Below, piece by piece: positions 38,013-38,256 of a stretch of 64,000 bases of DNA. Origin of the DNA: Novosphingobium sp. RL4 (lineage in GTDB: Bacteria; Pseudomonadota; Alphaproteobacteria; Sphingomonadales; Sphingomonadaceae); contig NZ_CP141944.1 of NCBI RefSeq assembly GCF_035658495.1, positions 1,948,001 through 2,012,000 of the forward strand, in the 5' to 3' direction. Within the stretch, counting starts at the first letter, position 1. Each line of letters begins with the position of its first letter. The notes under the pieces were generated by a model. It worked only from the letters and a program-made list of their open reading frames with translations. It was not told the DNA's origin and ran no database searches. The position numbers were made by a program, and so were the translations under genes.

Positions 38013-38256
38013 GATTCAGTCGTTCGCAGGCCGCCTCCGGCGCGTTCCTCCGCATCTGCGCGCCGACGCCCGAAAACCTGCGCCGGGACAAATTTTTCGC
38101 GGTGAGTCCGGGGAGTCACAACCCCCACATCTAGAGTCTGGCGGATCGATCATGACTCGACATCTTGTGTCGGATTCGTTTTGTTCTGTTTGCTGAACAC
38201 CTGAATCACAAGAGAATCCCACGAGTCGCGGGTTGACGGCGAGTCTCGAAAGACTC
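38013..38256 (+). promoter_or_regulatory. Cluster of GANTC methylation sites in the ccrM leader
   Basis: Eleven GANTC sites lie upstream of ccrM, with first bases at 38013, 38104, 38113, 38134, 38154, 38173, 38203, 38214, 38223, 38241 and 38252. Ten fall in 153 bases, where about 0.6 would be expected at one per 256. Spacings from 38104 are 9, 21, 20, 19, 30, 11, 9, 18 and 11, close to multiples of ten, so most sites would face one side of the helix. CcrM methylates GANTC, so this is a candidate autoregulatory element. Confidence 0.85.
38021..38061 (+). repeat. Imperfect direct repeat flanking ccrM, upstream copy
   Basis: About 41 bases that align with 39482-39518 on the other side of ccrM. 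The best conserved part is TCCGGCGCGTTCCTCC (second copy TCCGGCGCGCTCCTCC). It could be a dispersed intergenic repeat or the remnant of a duplication around ccrM. Confidence 0.55.

Follow-up and report, generated by a model that had tools for sequence, protein, structure and literature searches.

A dense GANTC array at the putative promoter of the ccrM methylase gene in Novosphingobium, a candidate methylation-sensing feedback promoter

The promoter of the adenine methyltransferase gene ccrM in Caulobacter crescentus has two GANTC sites in its leader, is activated by CtrA, and is turned off by remethylation. To our knowledge, how the level and timing of a chromosome-wide methylase are set is an open question outside of Caulobacter. 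CtrA is described as an activator of Caulobacter ccrM (PMC3667746), the methylation state is considered to 'most probably' affect the ccrM gene itself (PMC3973325), and Caulobacter start sites with a GANTC between the -35 and -10 elements are grouped as one timing class (PMC4287350). GcrA is presented as an m6A reader that is principally an activator (PMC7987155), and there are precedents in both directions, with ctrA P1 silenced by full methylation and other promoters activated by GcrA (PMC3667746, PMC7987155). The ccrM gene has already been named as a likely core GcrA target based upon GANTC-motif scores from 13 species (PMC7987155), a rise in GANTC at the origin has been published (PMC9836097), and in a Sphingomonas the GANTC sites have been found to carry m6A (PMC8067484).

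Here, we describe an array of GANTC sites in Novosphingobium sp. RL4, which lies within a 64-kb stretch of DNA analyzed in its entirety and referred to below as the window. The gene beside the array had been predicted to encode CcrM, and the match is a strong one: the 377-aa product has an N6_N4_Mtase domain (PF01555) with a DPPY motif plus a C-terminal RAMA domain in Pfam, which is the domain composition of CcrM, and its nearest solved structure is 6pbd, CcrMI (E 5e-153). Among the near full-length matches, its identity to CcrM of same-genus genomes is 74-95%, and the closest protein among the CcrM of named relatives also comes from Novosphingobium. One same-genus draft genome (G022) has a second near full-length CcrM-like gene on contig C163 (L056), which is 60% identical and is either contamination or a true duplicate. 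The features of the locus are as follows, with the promoter elements being predictions.

38013..38017, + strand: lone GANTC beyond the array (site count)
38104..38108, + strand: outer GANTC (-129), 30 bp 5' of arm A; at -28 to -30 from arm A in 112/130 loci
38113..38117, + strand: extra GANTC (-120); at -20 to -22 from arm A in only 9/130
38114..38193, + strand: inverted-repeat-arm block, from a 130-locus family consensus AT.TtGAGTC ... GACTCaA.AT
38134..38138, + strand: block arm A GANTC (-99); exact place in 105/130 loci
38154..38158, + strand: block arm B GANTC (-79); exact place in 103/130 loci
38173..38177, + strand: block site C GANTC (-60); exactly +39 from arm A in 80/130 loci
38203..38207, + strand: lattice GANTC at -30 from the -35 element, near the CtrA half-site position of other family members
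38214..38218, + strand: lattice GANTC at -19 from the -35 element; at -20 or -19 in 40/153 family promoters, and the top position in loci of the order and class
38223..38227, + strand: lattice GANTC at -10 from the -35 element; exactly -10 in 42/153 family promoters
38233..38238, + strand: putative -35 element TTGACG; in 33/33 aligned same-genus upstream regions, with the core in 198/280 loci
38241..38245, + strand: second core GANTC, in the spacer at +8 from the -35 element; at +7 to +9 in 127/153
38252..38256, + strand: core GANTC, fixed at +19 from the -35 element (predicted promoter positions -16 to -12), from its +19 conservation
38256..38261, + strand: putative weak -10 element CACTAG (-11A kept, -7T lost), from the 17-bp spacer; shares its first base with the core GANTC
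38267..38275, + strand: DnaA-box-like CAATCCACA (7/9, 2 mismatches) near the predicted start, outside the 83 family cases described below
38297..39430, + strand: ccrM, GANTC adenine methyltransferase, 377 aa (ORF, Pfam, closest solved structure)

Several features of this locus are reminiscent of the Caulobacter ccrM promoter, as both consist of a methylase gene with its own GANTC at the promoter and cell-cycle factors alongside. The RL4 locus differs from the Caulobacter promoter as described in having ten sites, of which eight lie upstream and two fall in the spacer, along with a phased block and a DnaA-like box. No locus in our set is known as Caulobacter, and a search for one by CcrM identity reached 83% at best. 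The locus is also similar to GcrA/CcrM-dependent sigma70 promoters such as ctrA P1, mipZ, and podJ in having GANTC in the -35/-10 region, except that the probes described in PMC3667746 have one to three sites, whereas here a fixed site at -16 to -12 is combined with an upstream phased array and the ccrM core is shared by genomes in which no GcrA was detected. As in the autoregulation of restriction-modification methyltransferases (CfrBI, LlaDII, and MspI, as cited in PMC3874152), a methylase may control its own gene via promoter sites, but CcrM appears to be a solitary cell-cycle methylase from our inspection of the ORFs at 33000-44000, with many sites and possible replication-linked hemimethylation. 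Lastly, dense GANTC in a control region also characterizes the GANTC rise at alphaproteobacterial origins, though the ccrM array is located at the methylase gene rather than at the origin. Our literature searches, which extended to papers but not to their supplements, returned no published description of this promoter architecture. As far as these searches show, the fixed core grammar, the one-family lattice, the whole-turn rule, the start-site DnaA box, and the independence of the core from detected GcrA are all new.

The GANTC sites start at 38104, 38113, 38134, 38154, 38173, 38203, 38214, 38223, 38241, and 38252, with 38013 standing apart, and this recount exactly matches the original prediction of ten sites in 38104-38256 with spacings of 9, 21, 20, 19, 30, 11, 9, 18, and 11. 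Such a number is extreme because the genome avoids GANTC. The 64-kb window contains 105 sites, compared with a mean of 317 in shuffled sequence, a scarcity that is consistent with GANTC methylation in vivo by CcrM. The density of the site is 1.88 per kb in 344 kb sampled from the genome (the window and 14 further stretches of 20 kb each, from a total of 5.45 Mb in two contigs), which yields an expectation of 0.29 per 153 bp (Poisson P(≥10) = 8e-13). Within the same sample, the ccrM array with its 10 sites ranks first in GANTC density per 155 bp, while the runner-up has 8 sites and is located beside hemE (L058). Among 16 palindromic pentamers compared, GANTC stands out with a genus mean of 8.4 upstream of ccrM versus 0.1 in coding DNA; at class loci CGNCG equals GANTC in frequency upstream of ccrM, yet CGNCG is commoner still in coding DNA. 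The array stretch contains no tandem repeat and its regularity is therefore not due to a duplicated 10-bp unit. A search of 37800-38500 for RNA elements gave a single Rfam match far under the gathering score (E 0.89), and the fold of 38080-38310 barely exceeds its shuffles (z -1.4, with 16/200 equally good). Two terminator-like hairpins lie within the array at 38157-38173 (+) and 38232-38218 (-), where shuffles expect 0.5. Elsewhere in the window there are looser GANTC-rich stretches at 49249-49667 (7 sites in 0.42 kb) and 13483-17036 (15 sites in 3.6 kb).

Our comparison included 280 distinct ccrM loci, with 34 from the genus, 72 from other members of the family, 21 from other families of the order, 79 from the class, and 74 from named relatives. 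Left out beforehand were 7 loci without a DPP[YF]N motif and 6 exact upstream duplicates, as was the second copy L056; L057-L071 are not ccrM loci, and L310-L317, from the GcrA search, were unused. It should be noted that the named set shares species with the other sets, as identical upstream regions alone were removed. Two genomes of one other family of the order (G037 and G060) had no ccrM match. The number of GANTC sites in the 290 bp before ccrM averaged 8.4 in the genus (n = 34), 5.5 in the family (n = 72), 5.4 in the other families (n = 21), and 3.4 in the class (n = 78), compared with an expected 0.3-0.6; two further loci were excluded from these counts for short upstream DNA. The original prediction would have failed had related ccrM genes lacked clustering, but at least 4 GANTC per 290 bp were found at 34/34 genus, 63/72 family, and 21/21 other-family loci. 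Thus, the cluster is also present outside of the Sphingomonadaceae, though without the lattice described below. Among class loci, 11/78 have zero GANTC in this interval.

A common core can be recognized among these regions. TTGAC-N14-GANTC is present at 198/280 ccrM loci across the Alphaproteobacteria (30/34 genus, 59/72 family, 15/21 other-family, 38/79 class, and 56/74 named), and is missing from 41/79 class loci. The base following the core GANTC (-11) is A in 198/198, even though these loci were selected by TTGAC-N14-GANTC only with the next base ignored. In the 344-kb sample of the RL4 genome, TTGAC-N14-GANTC occurs three times with both strands counted, and A follows only at the ccrM copy. 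For the 153 family promoters, the core was located by a rule that favors GANTC at +19 and at +7 to +10 and A at +24; with this bias in its favor, GANTC is at exactly +19 in 145/153. The same rule found no core in 27/180 genus, family, and named loci, including the named Sphingomonas melonis (L298). The outer GANTC is fixed at +19, whereas the inner one slides, mainly from +7 to +10, and at +7 to +9 its middle base is G in 68, C in 53, and A in 6. Overall, the middle base varies at both core sites (C/A/T in the outer and G/C/A in the inner), while GA and TC are constant, as would be expected if a methylation target is under selection. The arrangement would be that of a sigma70-type promoter with a 17-bp spacer and a -10 element of the form CANNNT that shares its C with GANTC, and transcription is predicted to start at ~38267-38270. 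A stock consensus promoter scan reported no promoter at the array. The -7T is present in 53/53 loci from the order and class versus 18/30 genus loci, and the CACTAG of the window, lacking it, is among the poorer -10 elements. Consequently, the array would not be situated mainly in the transcribed leader, as had been proposed: eight of the ten sites are upstream of the -35 element and two are in the -35/-10 spacer, so the stretch is better described as a putative promoter and its upstream region.

Farther upstream in the family is the block, whose consensus reaches past the GANTC sites themselves (AT.TtGAGTC...GACTCaA.ATcTtGTG.cGGaCTC.TTtcGTTC). It was placed by a flank-letter profile with the GANTC columns masked, after an earlier stricter motif had found 30 loci; 130 blocks were placed, while 23 of the 153 core-bearing loci had none above the threshold and were uncounted. 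The distance from the block to the -35 element is 88-89 bp at 4 loci, 97-101 at 101, 109-111 at 24, and 120 at 1, which amounts to whole turns in 130/130, with four of the blocks placed by eye (the profile had given 123, 131, 132, and 133). Class means are 88.5, 99.3, and 110.0, with steps of 10.7-10.8 bp. The distance class changes 19 times on the CcrM tree, an approximate figure because the tree is built from a single gene and 200 residues. As a control, the distance from the core to the DPPY coding motif at the same loci is without a period (R 0.15 at 10.5). Natural indels among the placed blocks have therefore occurred by whole turns only, as in a phase-constrained upstream element, and evolution has in effect performed a half-turn test of the block versus the promoter. 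We also considered the block as a regulon-wide operator and rejected this, as the RL4 genome has no second copy beyond seven short matches (E 0.2 or more) and the 344-kb sample has no other good match.

The regularity of the individual sites is a separate matter from this whole-turn spacing. The ten sites of the window have R = 0.90 at 9.9 bp, which was matched by a fraction of 0.0002 of 20000 random placements, so the claimed spacing of about 9.9 bases is indeed regular. The proposed helical reading, in which one protein contacts one face of the DNA, fares less well, as R falls to 0.11 at the B-DNA repeat of 10.5 bp. A period of 9.9 bp drifts by nearly one turn against 10.5 bp across 152 bp, and therefore a one-face array could only be local. 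In the genus and family, upstream sites gather near -10, -20, -30, -60, -80, -99, and -129 from TTGAC, plus fillers, with a best period of 10.0 bp in the genus (R 0.81) and 9.8 bp in the family (R 0.67); at 10.5 bp, R is 0.27 and 0.35, respectively. Taking one locus per genus (54 genera and 208 sites) results in R 0.65 at 9.8 bp and 0.35 at 10.5 bp. Since the lattice is 9.8-10.0 bp, the upstream sites of the Sphingomonadaceae are not all on the same side of 10.5-bp DNA. No period was found in the class or in other families of the order (R 0.12 at 10.5 and ≤0.23 over 8-14 bp). The expectation that related ccrM regions would be phased thus held within the family as regular spacing, but not in other families of the order or in the class. 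From these sequences, the regular spacing is a trait of one family, which the named loci indicate to be the Sphingomonadaceae. Control pentamers are periodic as well (AGNCT R 0.64, n 80; TANTA R 0.97, n 4), and the lattice is shared by descent; for both reasons, periodicity is weaker evidence than R suggests. Yet phase does appear to matter between the block and the -35 element, given their whole-turn distances, and the indels are the stronger evidence for a spatial rule.

Sites for two other cell-cycle factors accompany the array. A DnaA box with ≤1 mismatch is found at +20 to +90 of the -35 element in 83/153 family promoters, compared with 0.005-0.008 expected per locus. Boxes at the -10/start region were present in 13/32 genus, 33/64 family, and 37/57 named loci, but in 0/19 and 2/48 outside of the family, with 0.005-0.015 expected per locus over all of these sets. 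The CtrA half-site TTAACCA occurs within -48 to -18 in 60/153 family promoters and has two main places about ten bases apart, at -39/-38 (29) and at -29 to -27 (29). Four individual loci (L013, L018, L023, and L028) have a half-site at -38/-37 from TTGAC. The half-site is absent from the ccrM upstream region of the window, which has a GANTC at -30 instead. Among the 153 promoters, a CtrA half-site and a GANTC at -33 to -20 co-occur in 3, with CtrA only in 57, GANTC only in 34, and neither in 59 (Fisher 4e-6); on the tree, only 7 supported independent pairs bear on this avoidance, and they are not decisive. In 2010, DnaA control of ccrM had been predicted where CtrA sites are lacking (PMC2877005), and no conclusion was drawn from GANTC numbers in that study.

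We also considered the position of ccrM on the chromosome. In 14 samples of the RL4 genome, the GC skew switches to positive at some point from 350 to 600 kb and returns to negative from 2.10 to 2.35 Mb, the one exception being the sample at 1.60 Mb. Just before hemE (L058:18092-18330; G000:C1 ~368.1-368.3 kb) there are 8 GANTC in 155 bp and three DnaA-box-like sites, and the ORFs beside this cluster are presumably a PEP-synthase regulator, maf, and aroE, which they resemble. This cluster is the probable chromosome origin. On a scale running from this origin to the terminus, ccrM sits at 0.89 in its own genome, at 0.33-0.96 (mean 0.67) in 22 family genomes including its own, and at 0.55-0.87 in four other-family genomes, with several lengths rounded and with hemE as an origin mark checked in its own genome only. 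None of the 26 genomes of the order, G000 included, has ccrM close to the origin as marked by hemE, and the gene would accordingly turn hemimethylated in mid to late replication. According to PMC8116508, its location follows no clear pattern in the order.

Taken as a whole, the array may be a methylation-sensing negative-feedback promoter of ccrM, a reading to which we assign a probability of roughly one half. The gene would have a dedicated promoter at which GANTC methylation (or occupancy) reports back on the methylase gene. The spacer GANTC at -16 to -12 would abut the -10 element, which places m6A or a bound protein where sigma region 2 contacts the DNA. In the Sphingomonadaceae, an upstream GANTC block composed of an inverted repeat with outliers on a ~10-bp lattice is held at a whole-turn distance from the putative -35 element, so that any protein bound to it would have to approach RNA polymerase from a fixed side. 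With the array fully methylated, ccrM transcription would be low; passage of the replication fork would leave all sites hemimethylated simultaneously and open the promoter, and fresh CcrM would then remethylate the sites and close it. The many sites would make this return slow and cooperative, possibly for a pulse or for level control. GcrA, where present, would be the likely reader, while DnaA (at the start-site box) and, in part of the family, CtrA (at a half-site near -38 or -28) would supply cell-cycle timing. Such a feedback promoter would explain why a target is kept at the -10 element, why middle bases drift, why sites multiply, and why they are in phase with the polymerase. The comparison itself establishes the anatomy, its conservation, the phase constraint, and the presence of DnaA- and CtrA-like sites, whereas the promoter elements and start, an effect of methylation on activity, the sign of that effect, and its readers are what we infer.

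The same elements could also operate with the opposite sign, which we consider possible but doubtful. Here, GcrA and sigma70-RNA polymerase would bind the methylated core and upstream sites and activate ccrM, with the array functioning as a high-occupancy GcrA loading zone; the loop would be positive because GcrA acts principally as an activator. GcrA is encoded in the RL4 genome, as determined by a profile match to an ORF, and is a plausible reader of the array, while its own upstream region has one GANTC and no array. Moreover, the lower strand of the core site fits YGAKTC in 52/53 loci from the order and class, with C or A as the middle base of the core. YGAKTCK motifs had also led to the prediction that ccrM is among the core GcrA targets in orders across the Alphaproteobacteria (PMC7987155), and on fully methylated ctrA P1 the region occupied by GcrA extends from -35 to +7 (PMC3667746). 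However, the GcrA-ccrM link is described as lost in the Caulobacterales (PMC7987155), and 19/79 class ccrM loci are from genomes without GcrA over the Pfam cut-off. A relaxed profile (E up to 10) had matches in 11/19 of these genomes but none above the cut-off, and RL4 GcrA as a query (E up to 1), for which three positive controls were found at 1e-14 or better, had weak matches in 7/19, the best being a C-terminal fragment in G179 (9.5e-4). The strict core is as common without detected GcrA (11/19 loci) as with it (27/60; Fisher p 0.43), and we therefore rejected a GcrA dependence by co-occurrence; the core is probably not dependent upon GcrA alone. Similarly, its middle base is C or A in all 11 strict-core loci without GcrA, so this preference is not tied to GcrA either. 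Single GcrA absences are uncertain because several of the genomes are drafts. Genomes with CcrM in which neither the Pfam profile nor RL4 GcrA found a GcrA include G225, G241, G293, G295, G212, G249, G240, G273, G197, and G274, among others, and they may represent true CcrM-without-GcrA lineages.

A methylation reader would be dispensable if CcrM were itself the bound protein, with un- or hemimethylated sites holding CcrM on its own promoter and blocking the polymerase by autorepression or titration. This requires no extra partner gene, the core overlaps the putative -10 element and binding would consequently block polymerase, and restriction-modification systems supply precedents for both methyltransferase autorepression and promoter-site methylation control (PMC3874152). 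We regard this as improbable nonetheless, as in our judgment a site spacing of 9-11 bp looks too tight for several CcrM dimers together, and CcrM occupancy has no need of whole-turn spacing between block and core. It is more improbable still that the block is an ordinary operator of a dedicated transcription factor, with GANTC being simply part of its motif and methylation concerning the core pair alone. An operator would agree with a consensus that extends past GANTC, with flanks that suffice by themselves to find the block, and with the nearly fixed middle base of the outer site (G in 100/103). It does not account for the extra GANTC sites between the arms, which occur at lattice places (40 sites at +8 to +12 from arm A, 11 at +1 to +7, and none at +13 to +17), nor would one fixed operator explain between-arm letters that differ among species or the GANTC sites near the -35 element.

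DNA wrapped by protein has a surface repeat near 10.0-10.2 bp. The 9.9-10.0-bp lattice could conceivably be such a repeat rather than helical phasing in free DNA, in which case CcrM would write, one site after another, a signal for its own promoter to be wrapped into a nucleoprotein coil, formed either by multimers of GcrA or by a nucleoid protein, and the gap between 38178 and 38202 would be a free linker between two wrapped modules of a methylation-written, nucleosome-like silencer. This is a long shot, though it does predict block-to-core steps of 10.7-10.8 bp against steps of ~9.9 bp within a module, which a flat array does not. Finally, it is very unlikely that the array arose by chance, from base composition, through a general enrichment of GANTC between genes, or from a tandem repeat: GANTC is over-represented in intergenic DNA of the Alphaproteobacteria (PMC3973325), but the Poisson probability of 8e-13, the top density in 344 kb, the presence of at least 4 GANTC at 118/127 genus, family, and other-family loci, and the lack of a tandem repeat all speak against such an origin.

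The phase-constrained arrangement found in a single family permits a clear half-turn test. That the core is present even where GcrA went undetected suggests that promoters of this kind may respond to methylation in the absence of the known reader. Because the promoter grammar TTGAC-N14-GANTC-A-N3-T recurs across the class, it also specifies the exact bases to alter.
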